Assembly (NCBI RefSeq): GCF_001650195.1 | Contig: NZ_LXYR01000037.1 | Location: forward strand, 1 to 51,716 | Length of the DNA stretch: 51,716 bases | Direction of reading: 5' to 3' | DNA from: Phormidesmis priestleyi BC1401 | Lineage (GTDB): Bacteria > Cyanobacteriota > Cyanobacteriia > Leptolyngbyales > Leptolyngbyaceae | Part shown: piece after piece, positions 325 to 46,018 of the stretch | How the letters are laid out: every line of letters starts with the position of its first letter | Numbering within the stretch: position 1 is the stretch's first letter | Made by a program: the position numbers and the translations under genes | Notes under the pieces: generated by a model | Databases searched by the model: none | Told to the model about the DNA's origin: nothing | The model's input: the letters and a program-made list of their open reading frames with translations, nothing else

Positions 325-1794
325 ATGATCTGGTTATTCGTACTAGGACTGATTACCTACTTTATCGTGCAGAGAGTGACCGGGATCACTCGCACTCCGG
401 TTTGGGCATTATGGCTGGTTGCTATGATGCCTGCGTTTTCGATCACTGCTTGGGCACTGGCGTTTGGGACTCAGCGACGAATGCCGCTAGAGCTAGTTAT
501 TTTGCTGTTTGTGGGCTGTTTAGCGCTTTATCTTTACCTGATCCAAAAGGGGCGAATTGCTCCGACTTCGGCGATCGACTCCACTACCCCTCAAGTGCCA
601 TCTTCGACTCCTGAAAAGTCTGGTCAATCGACTTCGCGCCCGATCAACAAGGCAGAGGAGACGAGTTTACAAGGTTGTTTTCCGTGGTCAGTCTATTATT
701 TGCAGAATATTGACTATCGTCCACAAGCCGTAATTTGCCGAGGACAGCTACGCACCACGCCAGAAGTGGCTTATAAAACGATTCAAGAAAACGTTGAGGG
801 AAAGTTTGGCGATCGCTTCTATGTCGTGTTTCAAGAAGGAGTAGACAAAAAACCGTTCTTTGCGCTGGTGCCTAACTCTCAAGCCAGCATAGAGGCGAGA
901 CAAGATAGACGACTGACCCGTCCGGGCATTGCGCTGGGGCTAGCAGCAATGACGTTGCTGACCACTTTGCTAGCAGGGCTTGAGATTGCGAAAAAACAGG
1001 TCACGTTAGACCCTTCAGTATTGGTGCAGGGATTGCCCTATGCACTGGCGATTGTGGGATTTTTTGCTGTGCGATCGCTGGGCTGTTATTGGACGACTCG
1101 CCGCTATCATATCGCTGCAACGCTGCCCTACTTTATTCCAGTGATTCCCTTGCCTCTGCTGCCCTTGGGAACGGTGGGATCATTTATTCAGATTCGATCG
1201 CCGATTCCTCATCGCAAGGCGCTGTTTGATGTAGGCGTAGTTGGCGCACTAGCAGGATTCGCGATCGCGATCCCTCTCTTATATTGGGGCTTAGATCATT
1301 CGTCTGTAGTCGCTCTCCCGCCAAAGCCAGGAGCTGGGTTACTCAGCTTTGAGGCACTGAATCCCAAATATTCTCTAGTGCTGGCAGGGTTAGGAAAGTT
1401 GGCGCTGGGAAACCAGCTAGTAGCGGCGAAAGCAATCAATCTCCATCCGATCGCGGTCGCGGGCTGGATTGGAGTGCTGTTTAGCGCATTTAATCTGATG
1501 CCCGTCGGACAGTTAGATGGCGGACGGATGGTTCACGCCATGTTTGGGCAGCGCACGGGGGCGGCGATCGGGCAAGTTTCTCGACTGTTGCTGCTGATTC
1601 TCTCGTTTGCTCAACAACATCTGCTGCTGTGGGCAATCTTGCTGCTGCTGCTTCCCGCTACAGATGAGCCTGCGCTTAACGATATCACTGAGTTAGATAA
1701 TTCTCGCGATGTGGTCGGGCTTTTGGCTCTAGCTCTGGTGCTGCTGGTCATTTTACCTGCGCCCAAAGTTGTGTTGGCGTGGTTGAGCCTTTAG
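325..1794 (+). CDS. Site-2 protease family (EGY-like) membrane protein lacking HExxH
   Basis: This 489-residue polytopic protein belongs to the M50/EGY-like family. It resembles the protein at 44528-46018 throughout: hydrophobic N-terminus, soluble domain at about residues 120-190, then a multi-helix core. The core keeps the PYFIP segment, a RKALFDVG segment and the second-metal motif region LMPVGQLDGG with Asp398. At the HExxH position the protein reads R250-S-L-G-C254, whereas the paralogue reads HELGH, so both zinc-binding histidines and the catalytic glutamate are absent. It should be proteolytically inactive if the usual mechanism applies. Plant EGY3 is a known HExxH-less relative. A regulatory or scaffold role is inference. 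The stop codon directly abuts the next start codon, so it heads an operon with a DUF815 ATPase and a thioesterase. Confidence 0.85.
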   Translation: MIWLFVLGLITYFIVQRVTGITRTPVWALWLVAMMPAFSITAWALAFGTQRRMPLELVILLFVGCLALYLYLIQKGRIAPTSAIDSTTPQVPSSTPEKSGQSTSRPINKAEETSLQGCFPWSVYYLQNIDYRPQAVICRGQLRTTPEVAYKTIQENVEGKFGDRFYVVFQEGVDKKPFFALVPNSQASIEARQDRRLTRPGIALGLAAMTLLTTLLAGLEIAKKQVTLDPSVLVQGLPYALAIVGFFAVRSLGCYWTTRRYHIAATLPYFIPVIPLPLLPLGTVGSFIQIRSPIPHRKALFDVGVVGALAGFAIAIPLLYWGLDHSSVVALPPKPGAGLLSFEALNPKYSLVLAGLGKLALGNQLVAAKAINLHPIAVAGWIGVLFSAFNLMPVGQLDGGRMVHAMFGQRTGAAIGQVSRLLLLILSFAQQHLLLWAILLLLLPATDEPALNDITELDNSRDVVGLLALALVLLVILPAPKVVLAWLSL

Positions 1795-3087
1795 ATGATG
1801 AATACTCAAGTCACCTCGATTCAGGCGCTTCATCAGAATCTTCTTTCACTGCTGGTGTATCGGGAGGTTTTAGGAGATCGGGTCGGGCAAGCCTTTTTAG
1901 AGTTGTTGCAGTCGCTGATCCGGGCAGACAGTGCGATCGCGCTACAGGCTTATGGGTCGTGGTTTTCGGCATTGGCTGAACGCGGTCAGGGATGGCGAGA
2001 CTATTTGCTCGATCGACTTTTAACCGCAGAGAATTCTTTTTCACAACAGAAATCTGACGATTTACCGTCTGCTTTGATCGACGCTGTGAAACGAGACTTA
2101 CAAATCTTGCAGAGTCTCTACAAGTGTCGAAGTGAGCAGGTTTGTGAATGGGTTAGTCAACAGACTTCTGCTGAAAATTTGACGGCATGGTCAGATGAGT
2201 TGCTCCAAGAAAAAACTGCTGCGCCGCTCAAAGCTAAGCTGAAAACGATGCAGGATTGGGCAGACGCGGTAGACGAATTATCTGTTTACTATCGTGAATT
2301 TGGGACGGGAATCTTCGCGAAGTATCAAGCGTTTCGGTGGCAACGTGGGCAACTGGCGGCGATCGCGCACCCCGATTTGCAGCAGGCATCGGATCTGATT
2401 GGCTATGAGACTCAGCGCGAGATGCTGCTCAAAAACACAGAGTTCTTGCTGTCGGGGAAGTCGGCTTTGCACATCTTGCTCTACGGCAGCCGGGGATCGG
2501 GGAAATCTTCGCTCGTCAAGTCGCTGCTGCGGCAGTATGGCGATCGTCAGTTGCGTCTAATCGAAGTCGGCAAATCTGAACTCAAAGACTTGCCCGCGAT
2601 CGTCGAGCCGTTGCGAAATCTACCTCAAAAATTCATCATTTTTGTAGACGACCTCTCGTTTGAAGAAGATGACGATGCCTATAAAGCGCTGAAAGTTGTA
2701 TTGGAAGGCAATCTCACCGCGCGTCCTCAAAATGTTGTCGTGTATGCGACCTCAAACCGACGGCATTTAGTGCGCGAGTTTTTTGACGATCGTCCTCGCC
2801 CCAAAGATGCTGACGAAGTTCACCACTGGGACACAGTGCAGGAAAAATTATCGTTCAGCGATCGCTTCGGCTTAACGCTCACCTTTGAACCTGCGGATCA
2901 GGCGACTTACCTAAAAATGATTCATCACCTCGCACAGCAAGCGGGGATCACATTAGAGTCAGAAGATTTAGACTATCGCGCGTTGCAGTGGGCGACCCGA
3001 CACAACGGACGATCGGGCAGAACTGCCCGACAGTTTATCGATTTTCTCACTGCCGATTTAGCTCTATTTGAGCCATTTCATTCATGA
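1795..3087 (+). CDS. DUF815-family P-loop ATPase
   Basis: This 430-residue protein matches the DUF815 family of AAA-like ATPases, whose cellular role is not established. The N-terminal 200 residues look helical. The ATPase core has a Walker A motif GSRGSGKSS (G231-S239, K237) and a Walker B motif FIIFVDDL with D285 and D286. A following segment VVVYATSNRRHLV looks like sensor 1, and a helical lid lies toward the C-terminus. No membrane segment is apparent. Its start immediately follows the stop of the site-2-protease homologue, and its end overlaps the thioesterase start by four bases (ATGA), which suggests translational coupling. Context suggests that it acts with the membrane protein upstream, but this is inference. 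A second ATG at 1798 is an equally possible start. Confidence 0.85.
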   Translation: MMNTQVTSIQALHQNLLSLLVYREVLGDRVGQAFLELLQSLIRADSAIALQAYGSWFSALAERGQGWRDYLLDRLLTAENSFSQQKSDDLPSALIDAVKRDLQILQSLYKCRSEQVCEWVSQQTSAENLTAWSDELLQEKTAAPLKAKLKTMQDWADAVDELSVYYREFGTGIFAKYQAFRWQRGQLAAIAHPDLQQASDLIGYETQREMLLKNTEFLLSGKSALHILLYGSRGSGKSSLVKSLLRQYGDRQLRLIEVGKSELKDLPAIVEPLRNLPQKFIIFVDDLSFEEDDDAYKALKVVLEGNLTARPQNVVVYATSNRRHLVREFFDDRPRPKDADEVHHWDTVQEKLSFSDRFGLTLTFEPADQATYLKMIHHLAQQAGITLESEDLDYRALQWATRHNGRSGRTARQFIDFLTADLALFEPFHS

Positions 3088-3485
3088 CCCAAATCTATCA
3101 GCGAACGGTGCGCTTTGAAGATACTGATGCGGCTGGCGTTGTTTATTTTGCCAATGTCTTAAAGATCTGCCACGAAGCCTATGAAGAAATTTTAATCACA
3201 GCAGGATTTGATCTCAAATCATTTTTTCGAGATTCTGATGTTGCAGTTCCCATTATTCATGCCGATGTTGATTTTTTTCGACCGTTGCACTGTGGCGATC
3301 GCTTATCGGTACAAATCAGTCCCCATCCCATTAACGACAGCGAGTTTGAAATTATTTATGAGATTAGTTTAGTGGGGTTCGATCGTCCTGCTAGTCGAGC
3401 GCTGACTCGTCATGTGTGCATTGATCCAGTAGGTCGATCGCGAAAAGAGTTGCCTCCTAAATTACGGCAGTGGGTACAACACTGA
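3084..3485 (+). CDS. Hotdog-fold acyl-CoA thioesterase, likely DHNA-CoA hydrolase
   Basis: This 133-residue protein is of the 4-hydroxybenzoyl-CoA thioesterase type. The active-site signature FEDTDAAGVVYFANVL at residues 11-26 contains the likely catalytic Asp15. Length and sequence fit the cyanobacterial 1,4-dihydroxy-2-naphthoyl-CoA hydrolases (Synechocystis slr0204 type), which release DHNA for phylloquinone synthesis. That assignment is by family resemblance, and substrate specificity is not proven by the motif. It is the last gene of a three-gene set and overlaps the DUF815 gene by four bases. No functional link between phylloquinone synthesis and the two upstream genes is obvious. Confidence 0.8.
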   Translation: MTQIYQRTVRFEDTDAAGVVYFANVLKICHEAYEEILITAGFDLKSFFRDSDVAVPIIHADVDFFRPLHCGDRLSVQISPHPINDSEFEIIYEISLVGFDRPASRALTRHVCIDPVGRSRKELPPKLRQWVQH

Positions 3486-3736: not shown

Positions 3737-4282
3737 ATGGTTAAGATTGCTGCAATTGGAGGGAGCTTACGATCGGGTTCCTCTACTTATTTAGCTCTTC
3801 AGCAAGCCGTCGATCGTCTCACGGCTTTGGGTGCCGAGGTCACACTGCTTGATTTGCGAACAATGAATCTGCCATTTTGCGATGGCGGAGATGACTATGC
3901 GGGATATCCCGATGTCAAGCGGCTGCAAGATGTTGTTAAAGAAGCAGACGCGATCGTGTTAGTCAGTCCCGAATATCACGGCAGCGTTAGTGGAGTGTTG
4001 AAAAACGCTCTTGACTTGATGGGCTTTGAAGAAATGGCAGGCAAAATCACTGGGCTAATCAGCGTCTTAGGCGGACAGGCAAACAGCAACGCCCTAAATG
4101 ATTTGCGCGTCATTATGCGGTGGGTCAATGCGTGGGTGATTCCTGAACAAATCGGCATCGCGCAGGCGTGGAAAGCCTTTGGTGACGATGGCAAACTGCT
4201 AGATGAAAAACTTGCTGAACGGTTCGATCGCTTCGCTCAAAGCCTCGTGGACAACACGCGCAAGATTCGTGGCGTAAATTAG
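3737..4282 (+). CDS. NAD(P)H-dependent FMN reductase family oxidoreductase
   Basis: This 181-residue cytosolic flavodoxin-fold enzyme belongs to the NADPH-dependent FMN reductase family (SsuE/chromate reductase/azoreductase-like). The FMN phosphate-binding loop GGSLRSGSSTY is at residues 8-18. The second family motif SPEYHGSVSGVLKNALD follows at about residues 76-92. Such enzymes pass electrons from NAD(P)H through FMN to quinones, metals or free flavin, and the substrate cannot be read from sequence. The pepF gene starts 23 bases downstream and is probably co-transcribed, although no biochemical link is evident. Confidence 0.85.
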   Translation: MVKIAAIGGSLRSGSSTYLALQQAVDRLTALGAEVTLLDLRTMNLPFCDGGDDYAGYPDVKRLQDVVKEADAIVLVSPEYHGSVSGVLKNALDLMGFEEMAGKITGLISVLGGQANSNALNDLRVIMRWVNAWVIPEQIGIAQAWKAFGDDGKLLDEKLAERFDRFAQSLVDNTRKIRGVN

Positions 4283-4305: not shown

Positions 4306-6120
4306 ATGACATCAGCGATCGTGACTTCCCAAAATCCAATCGATAGCCCTCAAGAGTGGGACTTGTCTGACCTCTATCAAGGATTTGATGATCCTAAATT
4401 AGAGCAAGATTTAGAGAGTCTGCAACAAGAAGCCGCAGACTTTCGCAGCCAGTTTCGCGGCAAGGTGACGGGGCTAATGCCAGAGCAGTTGGCGACGTGT
4501 CTTAAGACTTTGGAAGCGATCGCTGAAAAATCGGGCGTTCTCTACGCGTTTCCGTCGCTGATCTTTTCTGCTGACACTCGCAGCGCTGAGGCAAAACAGT
4601 TTTTAGACAAAGTGATGGAAGCCCTAACGGGAGTCGAGAATCAGCTTTTATTCTTTGACTTAGAGTTGCAAACTTTAGAAGCTGGGCAGTTTGACGCATT
4701 CCAAAATTCAGCCCCGTTAGCACCCTATCGCCACTATTTGAGCCAAATCGCCAAATATCGTCCGCACACGCTGTCAGAAGACGTTGAGCAGACTCGCAAC
4801 CAAGATAGTTTGACCGGAAGGCAGGCATTTATTCAACTGAGATCGGTGCATCTCGGCGAACAGCAGTATGAATCGGTCACGACTCCAGACGGCAAAACTG
4901 CCACCACAGAAGCTGATTTAGGGGCGCTGCTTTTTCATCCAGATGCCGAAACTCGCTATGCCGCCTATCAGTCGGTTCGCAAGGTGATGAATCAGCACAA
5001 CTCGCTCTATGGTTTCATTTTGAATACCGTCGCACAAGATCACAAGATCGAAAATCAGATGCGACGCTATGACTCGACGCTGCACAAGCAACTGATCGCC
5101 GATGAAGTCTCGGAGCCAGTGTTTCGCGCCATTATGGAAGGAACTCGCAGCCGCTTTGACTTATTCCAGCGCTATTATCGACTCAAGGGAGCAGCGATCG
5201 GGCAAAAAATTCGCACCTGTGACGTGTATGCGCCGTGGACAACAGGTGACGAGCAAATCGCGCCCATTCCTTATAAAGCGGGAGTCGAGACACTGATCGC
5301 TGCGTTAGAGCAGTTTGATGTCAACTACGCCCGTCGCGCCGAAGAATTCTTTTTGAACAACTGGGTCGATGCCAAAGTCCGGCAGGGCAAGCGGGGCGGA
5401 GCCTTTTGCGCCTACACTTACGGCAGACACAGCTATTTATTGCTCTCTTACACCGACGATTACAATTCGCTGTTTACACTCGCACACGAGATGGGTCACG
5501 GGCTGCACTTTGCCTGGATCGACGATCGTCAAACCTATTTCAACAGCAATCCGCCGATGGTGTTGGCAGAAATCGCGTCCACATTCAACGAGTTGCTGTT
5601 GCTAGATTATTTGCTCAAACAGGCAAAAGACGACAAAGCGCTGACCAAATCTCTGATTACTCGCCAATTAGAAGATCAGTTAAATCTGCTGTTTAGACAA
5701 AGCACGATTAGCCGATTGGAGTTAGCGGTGCACGATCGGGCGACTCAGGGCAGTTTTAATCACGAGTTTGTCAATGAAGAGTGGACAAAACTCTATCAAG
5801 AACTCTGTGGCGATGCAGTGGAAGTCTTGCCAGAGCATCAATATGATTGGGCGCGGATTGGTCACATTTACTTCAAGCCGTTTTATTGCTATCAATACAC
5901 TGCGTCGAATATCGTCAGTTTGGCATGTTACAAAAAATATCTTGAAGTCGGCAAAGAGTTCATTCCTGGCTATCTGGAGCTATTAGCGGCTGGCGGTAGT
6001 TTGGATCAAGTAGCAGCCCTGCGTCAATTTGTGGGGGTTGACCTCGAAGATCCTGAGACAATTCGCGGAGCGCTGACTTATGTTGAAACGCTGTTAGATC
6101 AGCTTCAGTCAACTCTTTAA
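4306..6120 (+). CDS. pepF: M3-family oligoendopeptidase (PepF type)
   Basis: This 604-residue zinc metallopeptidase of family M3 is a full-length PepF-type enzyme that degrades peptides in the cytoplasm. The zinc site is intact: HEMGH at residues 394-398, with His394, catalytic Glu395 and His398, and the third ligand Glu422 in LAEIASTFNE. The downstream tyrosine/histidine-rich region around GHIYFKPFYCYQY, which shapes substrate binding in M3 enzymes, is also present. A good ribosome-binding site (CAGGAG) lies 8 to 13 bases before the ATG. The end is followed by a strong nested hairpin at 6151-6189. Confidence 0.92.
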   Translation: MTSAIVTSQNPIDSPQEWDLSDLYQGFDDPKLEQDLESLQQEAADFRSQFRGKVTGLMPEQLATCLKTLEAIAEKSGVLYAFPSLIFSADTRSAEAKQFLDKVMEALTGVENQLLFFDLELQTLEAGQFDAFQNSAPLAPYRHYLSQIAKYRPHTLSEDVEQTRNQDSLTGRQAFIQLRSVHLGEQQYESVTTPDGKTATTEADLGALLFHPDAETRYAAYQSVRKVMNQHNSLYGFILNTVAQDHKIENQMRRYDSTLHKQLIADEVSEPVFRAIMEGTRSRFDLFQRYYRLKGAAIGQKIRTCDVYAPWTTGDEQIAPIPYKAGVETLIAALEQFDVNYARRAEEFFLNNWVDAKVRQGKRGGAFCAYTYGRHSYLLLSYTDDYNSLFTLAHEMGHGLHFAWIDDRQTYFNSNPPMVLAEIASTFNELLLLDYLLKQAKDDKALTKSLITRQLEDQLNLLFRQSTISRLELAVHDRATQGSFNHEFVNEEWTKLYQELCGDAVEVLPEHQYDWARIGHIYFKPFYCYQYTASNIVSLACYKKYLEVGKEFIPGYLELLAAGGSLDQVAALRQFVGVDLEDPETIRGALTYVETLLDQLQSTL

Positions 6121-6263: not shown

Positions 6264-8276
6264 ATGACAACGATTTTGGAACAGGGGAATATCAGTATTC
6301 ATACTGAGAATATTTTTCCGATTATCAAGAAGTGGCTCTACTCCGACCACGAGATTTTCTTGAGAGAGCTGGTGTCTAACGCGGTCGATGCCATTCAAAA
6401 ACTCAAGATGGTGTCAACCTCGGATGAGTTTTTGGGCGAGCTGGGCGAACCGGAGATTGTGATCACGATCGACTCCGAAAACAAAACCCTGGCAGTCTCC
6501 GATAACGGCATCGGCATGACCGCCGACGAGGTGAAGAAATATATCAACCAAGTCGCCTTCTCTAGCGCCGAAGAGTTCGTCGAGAAATATAAAGCCGTTG
6601 GCGATCAGCAGATCATTGGGCACTTCGGATTGGGTTTCTACTCATCGTTCATGGTGGCGAAAGTTGTCACGATCGACACGCTATCCTACAAAGCCGACTC
6701 GCAGGCGGTCAACTGGTCTTGTGATGGCTCGACTGAGTTTAAGTTGTCAGAAGGCGATTGTCCCACTCGCGGCACGACCGTTACCCTGGCACTGCAAGAC
6801 GAAGAACACGAGTATGCAGAACCCTATCGAATTCGGCAACTGATCAAAACCTACTGTGACTTTCTGCCCGTCTCGATCAAGTTAGAGGTGATCGAGCCAC
6901 TCAAAGAAGGGGAAGAACCCAAAGCGATCGAGCAGATCAACCGCCAAAAAGCCCCCTGGAAAGAGTCGCCCAAAAATCTCACGACTGAAGACTATTTAGA
7001 GTTTTATCGCTACCTCTATCCGTTTCAAGAAGAGCCGCTGCTGTGGGTGCATCTCAACACCGACTTTCCGTTCATCGTCAACGGCATTCTTTACTTCCCG
7101 AAGCTCAAGCCCGATGTTGATGTGTCTAAAGGACAGATCAAACTGTTTTGCAATCAGGTGTTTGTCAGCGAAAACTGTGAGGAAGTGATTCCCAAGTTTC
7201 TGCTGCCGCTGCGAGGGGTTGTCGATAGCGCCGACATTCCGCTCAACGTGTCGCGGAGCTTTTTGCAGAACGATCGCACCGTGCGCCGCATCGCAGACTA
7301 CATTGCCAAGAAAGTTGGCGATCGCTTAAAGGAACTGTATCGCGACGATCGAGAGCAATATATCCGATCGTGGCAAGACTTAGGCACCTTTGTTAAATTT
7401 GGCTCAATTAACGATGACAAATTCAAAAAGCAAGTCGAAGATATTCTGATCTATCGCACTACAGCGAATCTGGTCGATGACGCTCCTAAAATAGAAGTGC
7501 AAACGCCAGATGGAGATGCTTGGCAAGATACTTCTAACGCAGTCAACAACACTGTAGACGGCAGATCGTACACGACGCTCAAAGAATATCTAGAACGCAA
7601 CAAAGAACGCCACGAGAATCGCGTTTTTTACTGCACCGATGAGGTCACTCAGGCAACCTATGTGCAGCTTCACACCAGTCAGGGCTTAGAAGTTCTGTTT
7701 ATGGACTCGTTCATCGACAGTCACTTTGTCAGCTTCCTAGAGCGAGAATATTCGCAGGTGCAGTTTGCACGAGTGGATGCCGAACTAGATGACACGCTAA
7801 TCGACAAAGAGCAGTCTGAAATTGTCGACCCTAAAACCAATCAGACTCGCAGCGAACAAGTCAAAGAACTGTTCAAGAAAGCGCTCAACAAGCCGAAGCT
7901 AATCATTCGCACTGAGGCACTTAAAGGAGACGACCCCGCCAGCACGCCCCCCGCGATGGTTCTTTTACCTGAGCAACTGCGCCGGATGCAGGAAATGAAT
8001 GCGCTGATGCAGCAGCAAAATATTCAGTTCCCTGAAGAACACATTTTGTTAGTCAATACGACTCATCCGATGATTCAAAACTTGATTAACCTGAGTCAAG
8101 GCGCGATCGTCACCGAGGGTCAATCTCCGTCAGCAGAACTCGCCAACATGATTTGTCATCATGTTTATGATCTGGCGTTGATGGCACAAAAAGGGTTTGA
8201 TGCCGATGGCATGAAAGCATTTGTAGAGCGATCGAACCAGGTGCTAACTAAACTCACCGATCGGGCAACTCACTAA
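6264..8276 (+). CDS. htpG: Molecular chaperone HtpG (Hsp90)
   Basis: This 670-residue HtpG is a cytosolic ATP-dependent chaperone, important in cyanobacteria under heat, light and oxidative stress. The N-terminal ATP-binding domain shows the GHKL signatures: LRELVSNAVDAIQK (with the catalytic Glu and Mg-binding Asn), DNGIGM and GHFGLGFYSSFMV. The middle domain has the conserved segment NVSRSFLQNDR, and the C-terminal dimerisation domain follows. Length is usual for the family. The ATG at 6264 gives the expected N-terminus, with a GGA-containing ribosome-binding region upstream. No CIRCE-type operator was recognised in the 143-base upstream spacer. Confidence 0.97.
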   Translation: MTTILEQGNISIHTENIFPIIKKWLYSDHEIFLRELVSNAVDAIQKLKMVSTSDEFLGELGEPEIVITIDSENKTLAVSDNGIGMTADEVKKYINQVAFSSAEEFVEKYKAVGDQQIIGHFGLGFYSSFMVAKVVTIDTLSYKADSQAVNWSCDGSTEFKLSEGDCPTRGTTVTLALQDEEHEYAEPYRIRQLIKTYCDFLPVSIKLEVIEPLKEGEEPKAIEQINRQKAPWKESPKNLTTEDYLEFYRYLYPFQEEPLLWVHLNTDFPFIVNGILYFPKLKPDVDVSKGQIKLFCNQVFVSENCEEVIPKFLLPLRGVVDSADIPLNVSRSFLQNDRTVRRIADYIAKKVGDRLKELYRDDREQYIRSWQDLGTFVKFGSINDDKFKKQVEDILIYRTTANLVDDAPKIEVQTPDGDAWQDTSNAVNNTVDGRSYTTLKEYLERNKERHENRVFYCTDEVTQATYVQLHTSQGLEVLFMDSFIDSHFVSFLEREYSQVQFARVDAELDDTLIDKEQSEIVDPKTNQTRSEQVKELFKKALNKPKLIIRTEALKGDDPASTPPAMVLLPEQLRRMQEMNALMQQQNIQFPEEHILLVNTTHPMIQNLINLSQGAIVTEGQSPSAELANMICHHVYDLALMAQKGFDADGMKAFVERSNQVLTKLTDRATH

Positions 8277-8288
8277 TCTCTGATCCAT

Positions 8289-8320
8289 AGTCCGTAGTGA
8301 TGTCATTGTCATTACGGACT
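8289..8320. terminator. Hairpin between convergent htpG and ssb
   Basis: A 12-base-pair stem with one G-T wobble (arms 8289-8300 and 8309-8320) has an eight-base loop. It sits between the 3' ends of htpG and the SSB gene, so it could end transcription from both sides. No clear T tract follows. Confidence 0.5.
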
Positions 8321-8399
8321 TGTAGAAAATCAATTACTTCAACGTTAGTGCCCGACTCCATTCAGGAATCGCGGCAATTTTTTTACCCCTATCCCTCAA

Positions 8400-8882
8400 C
8401 TAAAACGGAATATCATCCAGTTCAGGCTGGTCGATCGGGGCAGGTGCCGCTGGAGCTTTAGCCGTCGTGGTCTTTGCTCGTGGAGTTGCCGCAGGTTTCG
8501 CAGATTGAGTGGCCGCAGGTTGAGCCGCTGGCTGAGACACCGCTCCCGTAGGCGCACTCGCCGTTGTGCGAATATCGCCCCCATCCAAGGTGTAGATCTT
8601 CTGCACCGTCATTTCTGCGGTCTTTTCTTTAAAGCCTTCGGGACGCTCGATCGTGTTCATCGTTAAGCGACCGTCGATGATCACCCGATCGCCCACATGA
8701 TAGTTTGCCTGAATGTCTTGCGCGATGTTGCCCCATCCCACGACCTTCAGCGTCACCGGAGGCTCTTCGGGGCGCAACCCGGCAAATTGGACGCGCATCT
8801 CAGCGATCGGCGTTTGATTATCGGGCGTAAAGCGGAGTTGAGGATCTTGAATGACCTCTGCCATCAGGATGCAGTTATTCAT
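8400..8882 (-). CDS. ssb: Single-stranded DNA-binding protein
   Basis: This 160-residue SSB has an N-terminal OB fold (residues 1-105; begins MNNCILMAEVIQDPQLRF) and a flexible Pro/Ala/Gln/Lys-rich linker. It ends in DDIPF, the acidic-hydrophobic tail through which SSB recruits repair and replication partners. I chose the ATG at 8880-8882 because it matches the family N-terminus and has an AAAGGA ribosome-binding site. The upstream in-frame extension of 24 residues is unlike the family. The gene is convergent with htpG. Confidence 0.9.
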   Translation of the reverse strand: MNNCILMAEVIQDPQLRFTPDNQTPIAEMRVQFAGLRPEEPPVTLKVVGWGNIAQDIQANYHVGDRVIIDGRLTMNTIERPEGFKEKTAEMTVQKIYTLDGGDIRTTASAPTGAVSQPAAQPAATQSAKPAATPRAKTTTAKAPAAPAPIDQPELDDIPF

Positions 8883-9271
8883 GGGTGTCGTCCTTTGTCT
8901 CTCGGTGGTTGCTGTAATTGAGCGAGTCCTGCAAGCGAAGTTGTCTGTCCTCACCGTCGCTTCTCAATTTTAACCGTTGGCTGATCAACCCTGCACTTTT
9001 AACCATGACTGAGGAGATTACCCAGGTGGGTACTGCCTGAGCGATCGCTGGCTGGTTAGCTTAGGTGCAGTGAATTCTACTACAGAAGAGTAAATCACTA
9101 AAGCATTTGGTTTCTCAATTGAAGCCAATTTCAGGGCGCAATGCTTCGATTCTCACTCACCCCGATCTTCCAATGATCAATCCCAAAACTTGCCTACAAG
9201 CTCTGCTCACTAAGGCATTTGGACATTACAGAACTGACTCAGAACTTAATACTCAACTAGGAGACTTAACG
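8883..9271. other. Intergenic region between divergent ssb and haloperoxidase homologue
   Basis: This 389-base spacer separates two outward-facing genes and should contain both promoters. An open frame extends upstream from 9272 to a TTG at 9107, but it lacks family similarity and a ribosome-binding site, so I treat it as non-coding. A 15-base direct repeat with one mismatch (9096-9110 and 9208-9222) is present, with no known meaning. Confidence 0.4.
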
Positions 9272-10516
9272 ATGCCAAATATCGTAATCGAATGGAACTG
9301 CGTTTATCTCAATGCCATTCGCAACAAGGAAAAAGACTCACCTGGCGGGATCGCTAGAAAAGGCGCAATGGTGCACGGCGCGATTTATGATGCTGTCAAC
9401 TCGATCGTCAAGACTCATCAACCCTACCTAATTAGCATTCCGGCTGCGGACGGAGCTTCGATCGACGCTGCTGCCGCCCAAGCCGCTTATCAAGTTCTCA
9501 CCCGCGTTTACCCCGAACAGACAGACAGCTTTGATTTGAGCCTGCAAGACTCGCTCGATCGCATCTCGGCGGCTGACAGTGTTCAAAACGTCGAAAGCGG
9601 ACGAGTTATCGGCACTGCCGCCGCCTATGCCATGATTGCTCACCGCACCAATGATGGAGCCGAAAACACCGATCCTTACACTCCAGGCACCAACGCCGGA
9701 GACTGGCGACCCACCGGATCGGGGAACGCCGTCACTCCTAACTGGGACAAAGTGCGTCCGTTTGCGATGCAGACAGGCAATCAATTCCGTCCCTCACGAC
9801 CTGCAGGCTATGCCACCAAGCGCGACCTGTTGAGTAGCCCTGAATATGCCGCACAGTTCAACGAAGTGAAGCGGCTAGGGTCAGCCACGTCGAGCAGCCG
9901 CACCGCCGAAGAAACCGAGATTGCTTTTTTCTGGGCAAACGATTTGGATGGAACCTATAAACCACCGGGTCAGCTATTCCGATTCACACAAATTGTTGCC
10001 GAACAGCGCAGCCTCTCGATCGTCGAAACTGCCCGTCTGTTTGCGCTGGTTGGGTTGGCTCTCGGAGATGCCGGGATCGTCGCCTGGGATGCAAAATACT
10101 CTACCGATCTGGATCTGTGGCGACCCGAAACCGCCGTTCACCTAGCTGATATGGATGGAAATCCTGCCACCGATCAAGATGCTGCGTGGGAACCGCTCTC
10201 GGTCGATCGCAACGGCAAGCACTTTAGCCCCGCATTTCCTGCTTACGTTTCGGGTCACGCGACCTTTGGCGCAACCCACGCAGGCATTCTGCGGAATTTC
10301 TTTGGAACCGATAACGTCACGTTTAAGCTCGATACCGAAGACCCCAGTGCTGTCAACGTGAAGCGAGCCTTTAATAGCTTCTCGTCGGCTGCGTTAGAGA
10401 ATGGCAGAAGCCGGGTTTATCTCGGTGTGAATTATCAGTGGGACGCAGATGCTAGCTACATTTCTGGCACTCAGCTTGCCGATTATGTATCTGCCAACTA
10501 TCTGCAAGCGCTGTAG
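9272..10516 (+). CDS. Vanadium-dependent haloperoxidase/PAP2-family protein with Asn in place of the vanadate-ligating His
   Basis: This 414-residue PAP2-superfamily protein resembles bacterial vanadium haloperoxidases. Numbering is from the ATG at 9272, chosen for its TAGGAG ribosome-binding site and its family-like N-terminus MPNIVIEWN. Recognisable oxyanion-site motifs are K275 with R284-P285 in KYSTDLDLWRP, S327-G328-H329 in AYVSGHATFGA, and S380-R381. In the last motif, SRVYLGVNYQWDAD, the position normally held by the histidine that binds vanadium (or is the nucleophile in PAP2 phosphatases) is Asn387, codon AAT. Catalysis by the canonical mechanism is therefore doubtful. No signal peptide is apparent. 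A hairpin at 10528-10552 follows. Confidence 0.82.
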   Translation: MPNIVIEWNCVYLNAIRNKEKDSPGGIARKGAMVHGAIYDAVNSIVKTHQPYLISIPAADGASIDAAAAQAAYQVLTRVYPEQTDSFDLSLQDSLDRISAADSVQNVESGRVIGTAAAYAMIAHRTNDGAENTDPYTPGTNAGDWRPTGSGNAVTPNWDKVRPFAMQTGNQFRPSRPAGYATKRDLLSSPEYAAQFNEVKRLGSATSSSRTAEETEIAFFWANDLDGTYKPPGQLFRFTQIVAEQRSLSIVETARLFALVGLALGDAGIVAWDAKYSTDLDLWRPETAVHLADMDGNPATDQDAAWEPLSVDRNGKHFSPAFPAYVSGHATFGATHAGILRNFFGTDNVTFKLDTEDPSAVNVKRAFNSFSSAALENGRSRVYLGVNYQWDADASYISGTQLADYVSANYLQAL

Positions 10517-44527: not shown

Positions 44528-46018
44528 ATGATTATTACTGCAATAACGGTGCTGGTTGCGCTGGGCATTCTCGGCTGGGGCTATTATCGCGCCAAACCGT
44601 TTGGCAAACTGGGCATTCTTGCCTGGTGGCAATCGGTTGTGTTGATGGCTCCCTGGCTATTTTTCTTTGGGTTGACCACGCTGGGTATCTATCTCAACCT
44701 GGTGGGCGTTTTGCTGCTGTTTGTTGCTTCTACCGGACTCTACATTCTCATTGGGCGCAGACTTCGGGCAGCAGGTCAAGAAGAGCTTGCTAAACGAGTG
44801 TCGGCAGTTGCCAGTGGAGATGACTTATTTTCTAAACTTGAGTCATCAGGTTCAGAGGCGGCGGAATTGTCTCCCGTCTTAGACCCCGCCGCAAAGCCTG
44901 ACGTTCTCCCGATTCCCGCTGAAGATCTCAAGGCAATTCAGGGAATTTTTGGCATTGACACATTTTTCGCCACCGAAACCATTCCCTATCAGGAAGGCGC
45001 AATTTTTAAAGGCAACCTACGCGGCGAGGTAGAGCCAACCTTTGAGCGGTTATCTGTCAGCTTAAAAGAACGGCTCGACGATCGCTATCGCCTCTTCTTA
45101 GTCGAAAGTCAGGAAAACAGACCCGTAGTGGTGGTTTTGCCGAGCACTAACGATCCCAAGCCTGCGACGCTGACACAGAAACTTTTGGCAGGAGTATTGT
45201 TGATTGCGACGATCGCCACTTGCCTAGAGACTGCCGGACTTTTATTAGAATTTGACTTTTATAACTCACCAGAACGCTATCGAGAAGTGCTTCCGATCGG
45301 GCTAGGAATTCTCACGATTTTAGGCGTTCATGAACTGGGTCACTGGCTGCTGGCGCGTCGTCACAACGTCCGGTTAAGCTTTCCTTACTTCATTCCAACC
45401 TGGCAGATTGGCTCGTTTGGTGCCATCACTCGCTTTGATTCACTGTTGCCCAGTCGATCGGCGCTGTTTGATATTGCATTTGCAGGTCCGGCGGCGGGTG
45501 GCATCGTGTCGTTAGCCATGCTGATTACAGGGTTGCTGCTCTCCCACGAAGGCAGCTTATTTAAGCTGCCAACTCAATTTTTTGAGGGGTCAATTCTCGT
45601 CGGAACCGTGGCGCGAGTGATTTTAGGAACGTCTCTTCAGCAAGCGATCGTAGACATTCACCCCCTCACCATCTTGGGCTGGGTTGGGCTGGTTCTCACC
45701 GCCATCAATCTTATGCCTGCGGGGCAACTCGACGGAGGCAGAATCGTGCAGGCGATCTATGGACGCAAAACGGCTGGACGAACGACTGCTGCCACGATCG
45801 TGGTCTTAGCGATCGCGTCTCTAGTTAACCCGCTGGCTCTCTATTGGGCGATCGTGATTTTAGTCTTGCAGCGCAACTTAGAGCGACCCAGCCTTAACGA
45901 GTTGTCAGAACCCGATGACACACGAGCCGCTTTAGGATTGCTTGCTCTATTTCTAATGGTAACGATCTTGCTGCCGCTAACTCCCAGTCTGGCGGGGCGG
46001 TTAGGGATTGGTGGATAG
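44528..46018 (+). CDS. Site-2 protease (M50, EGY-like), catalytic motifs intact
   Basis: This 496-residue intramembrane metalloprotease is paralogous to the protein at 325-1794. It has two N-terminal hydrophobic segments and a soluble region (about 100-220). The membrane core holds HELGH at residues 268-272 (His268, Glu269, His272) and the third-ligand motif LMPAGQLDGGR with Asp402. It should cut transmembrane substrates within the plasma or thylakoid membrane, as site-2 proteases release anchored regulators and plant EGY1/EGY2 affect chloroplast development. An AGGGG ribosome-binding site precedes the ATG. A PIN-domain membrane protein lies 139 bases downstream. Confidence 0.9.
   Translation: MIITAITVLVALGILGWGYYRAKPFGKLGILAWWQSVVLMAPWLFFFGLTTLGIYLNLVGVLLLFVASTGLYILIGRRLRAAGQEELAKRVSAVASGDDLFSKLESSGSEAAELSPVLDPAAKPDVLPIPAEDLKAIQGIFGIDTFFATETIPYQEGAIFKGNLRGEVEPTFERLSVSLKERLDDRYRLFLVESQENRPVVVVLPSTNDPKPATLTQKLLAGVLLIATIATCLETAGLLLEFDFYNSPERYREVLPIGLGILTILGVHELGHWLLARRHNVRLSFPYFIPTWQIGSFGAITRFDSLLPSRSALFDIAFAGPAAGGIVSLAMLITGLLLSHEGSLFKLPTQFFEGSILVGTVARVILGTSLQQAIVDIHPLTILGWVGLVLTAINLMPAGQLDGGRIVQAIYGRKTAGRTTAATIVVLAIASLVNPLALYWAIVILVLQRNLERPSLNELSEPDDTRAALGLLALFLMVTILLPLTPSLAGRLGIGG

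Follow-up and report, generated by a model that had tools for sequence, protein, structure and literature searches.

What becomes of an intramembrane protease gene that has lost the zinc motif of its family: is it an error, a relic, or a protein with another role? The question is raised by the gene at positions 325-1794 (forward strand) of contig NZ_LXYR01000037.1 from the cyanobacterium Phormidesmis priestleyi BC1401, of which we analysed a stretch of 51,716 nucleotides, called the window below. The open reading frame encodes P0001, a 489-residue protein with a Pfam M50 match and an AlphaFold2 model of the site-2 protease (S2P) fold, in which the former HExxH zinc motif is now R250-S-L-G-C254 (1072-1086, same strand). 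A sequence-only reading had reported this replacement of HELGH by RSLGC at residues 250-254, and translation and orthologue alignments bear it out; its interval, 1069-1086, contains the motif but also takes in Val249. Our analysis supports well that the clade to which P0001 belongs consists of pseudoproteases. Our favoured interpretation, a tentative one that falls just short of what we would call probable, is that evolution has turned this site-2 pseudoprotease into a non-cutting partner, in the membrane, for a DUF815 ATPase.

P0001 is positively an S2P homologue by Pfam, structural model and sequence profile. Its translation reads FFAVRSLGCYW around the motif, PYFIP from residue 268, and LDGG with Asp398 (1516-1518, +), in agreement with the PYFIP and LDGG motifs and the kept Asp398 of the earlier reading; Asp398 is present in 20/20 members of the clade and in 173/173 intact orthologues. 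Among the features of M50 membership, the S2P membrane fold and the LDG aspartate are thus present and HExxH is absent. The PF02163 (M50) match scores 44.3 bits (cut-off 27.2) and covers residues 276-416 only, leaving the HExxH part outside, while an intact paralogue in the window (44528-46018, +), used for comparison only, scores 81.2 bits over residues 259-426. A search of NCBIfam with P0001 returned no family at E 0.001. The HELGH or HELAH of orthologues aligns over P0001 residues 250-254. We rejected the idea that the active site has moved elsewhere in P0001, as no HExxH is seen in the translation. In the available text of a study of SpoIVFB, zinc is bound by H43, H47 and D137, with E44 as the catalytic residue (PMC11486902); residues 250, 254, 398 and 251 are therefore the expected equivalents in P0001.

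The AlphaFold2 model, for which the window protein was aligned with the named-locus proteins (51 sequences in all), reached a predicted local distance difference test (pLDDT) score of 82 and a predicted template modelling (pTM) score of 0.76. VIA alignments placed it with the S2P of Methanocaldococcus (M.) jannaschii 3b4r (Z 11.1, root-mean-square deviation (rmsd) 5.0, 191 aligned), B. subtilis SpoIVFB 8vjm (Z 10.0, rmsd 5.1, 181 aligned) and RseP 7w6y (Z 9.1, rmsd 4.7, 143 aligned); for a helical membrane protein, Z values of about 10 are modest. Eight of the top nine rows are named S2P, SpoIVFB or RseP; the ninth, 9a6w (RASP-ECSA), is presumably the S2P RasP, and the tenth is a collagenase with Z 5.8. 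The sequence profile of P0001 also matches 3b4r (E 0.00095). As for a rhomboid fold, Pfam gave only M50, and the structural list is headed by S2Ps and includes no rhomboid, although a list of this kind cannot in itself exclude rhomboids. The fold is shared with the active S2Ps over P0001 residues ~199-455, as is the LDG aspartate, whereas P0001 differs from them in having no HExxH and an adjoining ATPase gene; its N-terminal three-helix part and an alpha/beta domain (~108-188) lie outside these structural matches. S2Ps have a re-entrant beta loop, according to the available text of PMC11486902, and a conserved region of P0001 (residues 269-287; 1129-1185, +) contains two predicted beta strands, 269-272 and 283-287, which the model leads us to expect to be this loop, before the active site.

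The motif loss extends well beyond this genome. We searched 58 relatives, 42 family members and 242 class members, in overlapping sets. The P0001 type usually occurs once per genome and matches in 173 of the 242 class members at E 1e-55 or better; 16 of the 20 listed class members without a P0001-type match come from three families. Proteins were read from 237 loci (the window's own, 36 from the searches of relatives and family members, 80 named, and 120 fetched), giving 208 distinct proteins when ends were ignored; class-member matches were covered as far as they were fetched. HExxH is present in 173 of these orthologues and absent in 35, and it is by chance that this 173 equals the number of class members matched. 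Asp is kept at position 398 in 34 of the 35 dead proteins; the remaining one, L133, has Asn by codon reading. One contig (L101), filed under a Candidatus Gracilibacteria metagenome-assembled genome, encodes a cyanobacterial-type orthologue and is probably misbinned. In Nodosilinea nodulosa PCC 7104, another M50 gene from the same BLAST cluster lies less than 6 kb from the P0001-type gene (L117:2006-3484 and 7989-9452).

A mixture-model tree built without the motif columns groups 20 of the 35 dead proteins, P0001 included, in one clade (bootstrap/SH-aLRT 100/99). HExxH is absent in all 20 of these distinct proteins, so the catalytic loss spans orthologues and is not confined to one strain; named members are Leptolyngbyaceae CSU_1_3, Myxacorys californica, Myxacorys almedinensis, Pseudanabaenaceae LEGE 13415 and Phormidium tanganyikae. 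The remaining 15 dead proteins fall in eleven further places on the same tree, and the fewest state changes required are 11, or 12 with a simpler tree model. Because HExxH defines the wider family, we take it as the ancestral state, the change count alone being blind to gain versus loss. We rejected a single loss shared by all 35 dead proteins, which was 444 log-likelihood units worse (p-AU 1.4e-5) in a test that excluded the trait columns, that defined the group by the trait itself and that included some long-branched dead rows such as L141. How many losses there were can be stated only approximately, given long branches (L141 4.0, L140 1.3) and the divergence of L141 (34% identical). In addition, L016 (HKFSQ) is sister to the dead clade with weak support (53/68) and, judging by its placement, could share the loss of the clade.

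Several lines of evidence indicate that these genes are maintained. The P0001 homologue of a congener (G001), 90% identical to P0001, reads RSLGS with identical CGA TCG codons at residues 250-251, and we therefore regard RSLGC as real and not as a sequencing error. The ratio of nonsynonymous to synonymous substitution (dN/dS) had a median of 0.089 in dead pairs (quartiles 0.074-0.110; 39/41 pairs) and 0.123 in intact pairs (quartiles 0.101-0.146; 827/899 pairs), in pairwise NG86 comparisons of proteins 70 to 97% identical with dS under 2.5, where dS was often high, pairs were not independent and 4 of the 41 dead pairs lay outside the clade. By this measure, the dead genes are clearly under purifying selection. 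The proposal that 325-1794 encodes a maintained protein is thus upheld, since the non-HExxH form is fixed in a 20-member clade, recurs elsewhere and is under purifying selection; orthologues do not all keep HExxH, nor is the substitution an error of one strain. The octamer GCGATCGC, which we take to be the HIP1 repeat of cyanobacteria, lies at 1071-1078 over codons 249-252 at the dead motif and occurs 49 times in the window; at this site the codons differ in most other members of the clade.

What is conserved in the clade is not the motif of the window protein as such. The twelve forms found are RSLGC, RSLGS, RAAGH, RGIGH, REGGH, RELGY, RELGH, RSFGQ, RSFGY, RSFGH, RSIGQ and RSLGQ; Arg250 and Gly253 are invariant in 20/20 members, and positions 251, 252 and 254 vary. 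We therefore rejected RSLGC as a conserved motif: a form other than HExxH is fixed in the clade, but only its Arg and Gly are constant. Arg250 shows zero amino-acid changes on the clade tree and is written with five codons (CGA, CGT, CGG, CGC, AGA), while column 251, the old Glu, has 3 changes and column 254, the old His, has 6, against a median of 3 per column among the 20 members. Glu251 persists in 7/20 and His at 254 in 10/20. We defined a clade-specific column as one where at least 18/20 clade members share a residue found in <10% of the 173 intact orthologues. Such columns are 246 (Phe), 247 (Phe), 250 (Arg), 276 (Leu, gapped), 381 (Trp), 386 (Phe), 401 (Arg), 402 (Met), 432 (His) and 443 (Leu), and 7 of the 9 ungapped ones fall within 246-250 or 381-402, carrying or flanking the former zinc ligands. 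Phe246-Phe247 (1060-1065, +) is found in 20/20 of the dead clade, whereas the intact proteins mostly have Ile-Leu (Leu247 in 173, Phe246 in 2 of 173). Trp381 (1465-1467, +) occurs in 20/20 versus 8/173, and Phe386 (1480-1482, +) in 20/20, the intact residue being V in 145, I in 15, L in 7 and A in 4 of 173. Arg401 of LDGGR (1525-1527, +) is present in 20/20 and replaced by His in 166/173 intact orthologues; Arg401 alone is not diagnostic, because the intact paralogue also reads LDGGR. As the Glu and second His drift while Arg250, Phe246, Phe247, Trp381, Phe386, Asp398 and Arg401 are invariant, the alignment indicates that the pocket is remodelled, not merely decayed.

The first His was also replaced by Arg in several of the independent losses (RELGR, RELAH, RELVH, RELAN, REVGQ). 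This replacement is one transition from either His codon, and its recurrence together with this single step suggests that mutation bias helps to explain the origin of Arg250. Its later fixity with changing codons, as read from the alignment, needs selection.

A second feature, which the sequence-only reading does not mention, sets the clade apart. The gene for a DUF815 AAA+ ATPase (1795-3087, +; Pfam PF05673, 2.6e-96) begins immediately after the stop codon of the pseudoprotease gene, and is followed by a 4HBT thioesterase-like gene (3084-3485, +; Pfam 4HBT_2, 6.8e-18) with a 4-base overlap. Across a comparison of 41 ATPase sequences, not all of them distinct, the Walker A motif, GSRGSGKS here (2485-2508, +), is GSRG(S/T)GKS in 41/41 and the Walker B region FVDDLSFE (2641-2664, +) is kept in 41/41. 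For 117 distinct proteins, 600 bases or more of sequence were available downstream; of these, an ATPase gene lies within 1.5 kb downstream in 20/20 of the clade, in 0/83 intact orthologues and in 0/14 other dead orthologues, the fifteenth (L133) having too little flank. In the clade it is on the same strand with no gene between, from overlapping the protease gene to ~150 bases away. Of the 58 genomes searched, that of the window among them, 54 carry the ATPase, usually with a single match. In genomes outside the clade the gene is either on a different contig from the protease gene or, on the same one, tens of kb or more away, the nearest case being 37 kb (G014). Across 11 clade loci laid out, the protease-ATPase pair is found in 11/11 and the 4HBT gene follows the ATPase in 8/11; genes past it are mostly unshared, with L051 and L306 sharing one, and the close relatives L039-L041 also share genes upstream. 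A divergent gene stands upstream of the protease gene in 9/11 clade and 11/12 intact loci laid out (metallo-beta-lactamase-like in L043), so the protease gene has kept its place and it is the ATPase gene that moved in. In one intact-type genome (G011, L320), the ATPase and 4HBT genes are already together. Beyond the operon, the window continues with an FMN reductase-like gene (3737-4282) and an oligopeptidase F-like M3 peptidase gene (4306-6120), the latter not shared with the ten other clade loci laid out.

From this gene pairing we infer a partnership between P0001 and the ATPase, which probably form a two-part membrane device. Arg250 would occupy the place of the zinc-binding His and pair with the retained Asp398, as the equivalence with SpoIVFB ligands suggests, replacing the metal as the counter-charge of Asp398 and keeping the core folded. 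P0001 would no longer cut and might still bind transmembrane clients through the client-binding architecture of S2Ps. It could then act as the membrane anchor or client adaptor that docks the soluble ATPase from the same operon, a hydropathy scan having found no membrane segment in the latter, and the ATPase would remodel or extract the clients held by P0001.

A number of observations weigh against this interpretation. The pairing arose once, and amounts to one phylogenetic coincidence, not 20. An ATPase neighbour is missing from ten other dead lineages (14/14 proteins tested), and catalytic loss therefore does not require the ATPase. An unfoldase activity of DUF815 is putative only: weak matches to Hda/DnaA, RFC and Midasin-type domains are below curated cut-offs or near chance, and an AlphaFold2 model of the ATPase (5 sequences) reached pLDDT 43 and was left unused. 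Root-to-tip paths above the minimum are longer in dead proteins (median 0.95 vs 0.36), a pattern compatible with either relaxed or changed constraint. HExxH is also missing from 2/40 sequences of the P0002-type (EGY-like) paralogue, in a survey whose 41st locus (L270) gave no readable match. These two paralogues, L281 (G045; RELAH with LSGG) and L283 (G048; YEGGR), come from genomes outside the family of the window. A search of PDB with the ATPase profile returned nothing beyond a weak match to Midasin (E 0.0088). Of five ATPase positions that differ between paired and unpaired genes, four are within the 175 residues at the N-terminus, which may reflect only ancestry and is not evidence.

The absence of an ATPase neighbour in those 14 proteins also speaks for another possibility, that all orthologues share a second role as a scaffold, independent of protease activity and consisting, for instance, in the stabilisation of other proteins; catalysis would be dispensable and repeatedly lost, and the ATPase an incidental operon partner. 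The 11 changes on the tree with a single origin rejected, and the presence of the unrelated-looking 4HBT gene as a third member of the operon, are in keeping with this, as is the plant protein EGY3, which stabilises chloroplast proteins according to the available text of PMC10978774. However, the ATPase pairing is unbroken in the clade, while 4HBT is less constant and later genes are mostly unshared, and the pocket residues are clade-specific and fixed. We consider this explanation possible, if on balance unlikely.

Another explanation turns on the other S2Ps of the cell: P0001 might bind, protect or present substrates of the EGY-like paralogue at 44528-46018 or of another S2P. This paralogue has HELGH at residues 268-272 (45329-45343) and the LDGG Asp at residue 402. 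In another genome, the paralogue matches in three pieces in different open frames (L284, G008:C430:41945-43325), perhaps through a draft-assembly fault. The genome has five clear M50 genes, all but P0001 with HExxH (the paralogue, L239, L241 and L242), so three further S2P-type genes with an intact motif would be available; a sixth M50 piece of 108 residues (L246) gave no HExxH match. In paired genomes, a set picked to include dead cases, the paralogue type keeps HExxH in 28/28 with a dead P0001-type protein, and iRhoms are described as inhibiting rhomboid-dependent signalling in the available text of PMC3149277. Nevertheless, the two types share only ~30% identity, the paralogue is also intact beside an intact P0001-type protein in 9/10 paired genomes, making its retention unspecific, and the ATPase pairing would be left unexplained. 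We regard such substrate shielding as quite improbable.

Continued hydrolysis through other residues, or through a metal with fewer ligands, could draw on the invariant Asp398 and on the clade members that retain Glu251 or His254, but the first zinc ligand is Arg in 20/20, P0001 has neither the His residues nor the Glu, and positions 251 and 254 drift, and we hold this to be very unlikely. A decaying gene or a sequencing or assembly error is hardly credible and was rejected, given the Arg-Ser codons shared with the congener, the open frames without internal stop in the matches of other clade members listed and dN/dS of ~0.09, even though one clade copy (G010:C146:37435-38870) has a two-frame match near residue 100, possibly a frameshift or assembly fault, and an intact orthologue (G054) has an internal TGA. 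For the G010 copy, only the larger frame (L125) was used in alignments.

The favoured reading, a dead S2P working with an ATPase, has parallels in other families. Rhomboid-family pseudoproteases (iRhoms, Derlins) and plant EGY3 are already known. The sequence-only reading had likened P0001 to iRhoms and EGY3; P0001 does appear to be a maintained bacterial site-2-family pseudoprotease, but the likeness is functional only; iRhoms are rhomboid relatives and not S2Ps. EGY3, a chloroplast protein, resembles P0001 as an S2P family member without HExxH; it has a role in stress, and the available texts do not mention an ATPase pairing like that of the P0001 clade (PMC9355673, PMC10978774); one of them describes EGY3 as an S2P pseudoprotease said to occur only in plant cells (PMC9355673). 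Closer in manner of working, and in that alone, are Derlin-p97/Cdc48 and YqgP-FtsH, in which, as far as the available text of PMC7231995 describes, an intramembrane-protease fold hands clients to an AAA+ machine independently of catalysis, YqgP passing MgtE on to FtsH without need of its own proteolytic activity. Derlins and YqgP belong to the rhomboid superfamily, however, whereas P0001 is an S2P homologue whose putative coupling is seen here as gene pairing, and FtsH is a membrane-bound protease whereas the DUF815 ATPase has no predicted membrane segment.

Caspase-fold orthocaspases are soluble proteases. Bacterial pseudo-orthocaspases, in the available text of PMC6426788, are likewise protease homologues with replaced catalytic residues in a cyanobacterial context, but they have a caspase fold and are an unrelated family. 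Cyanobacterial M50/S2P proteins like P0001, namely Sll0528, Slr0643, Sll0862 and Slr1821 (PMC4284730) and Synpcc7942_2576 (PMC11804935), are treated as S2Ps or M50 proteins in the portions of these papers available. The available passages of a review of bacterial S2Ps leave cyanobacteria unmentioned and a dead S2P undescribed (PMC10202637). Our search of the open-access literature, with subscription papers mostly outside it, recognised no paper on a bacterial S2P pseudoprotease.

If the favoured reading holds, P0001 and its neighbour may represent a bacterial unit for the dislocation or remodelling of membrane proteins, built on a dead S2P with arginine in place of zinc, as a counterpart of Derlin-p97, and the main role of the family may be non-proteolytic more broadly; we advance this wider proposal as speculative and rather unlikely. 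For work on DUF815, a widespread domain of unknown function, the pairing offers a concrete starting point. With about ten catalytic losses in a gene under selection, a non-proteolytic role of an intramembrane protease becomes directly testable, with dead and live orthologues as paired reagents. If true, one cyanobacterial S2P family has repeatedly shed catalysis, and its main role would be other than proteolysis.
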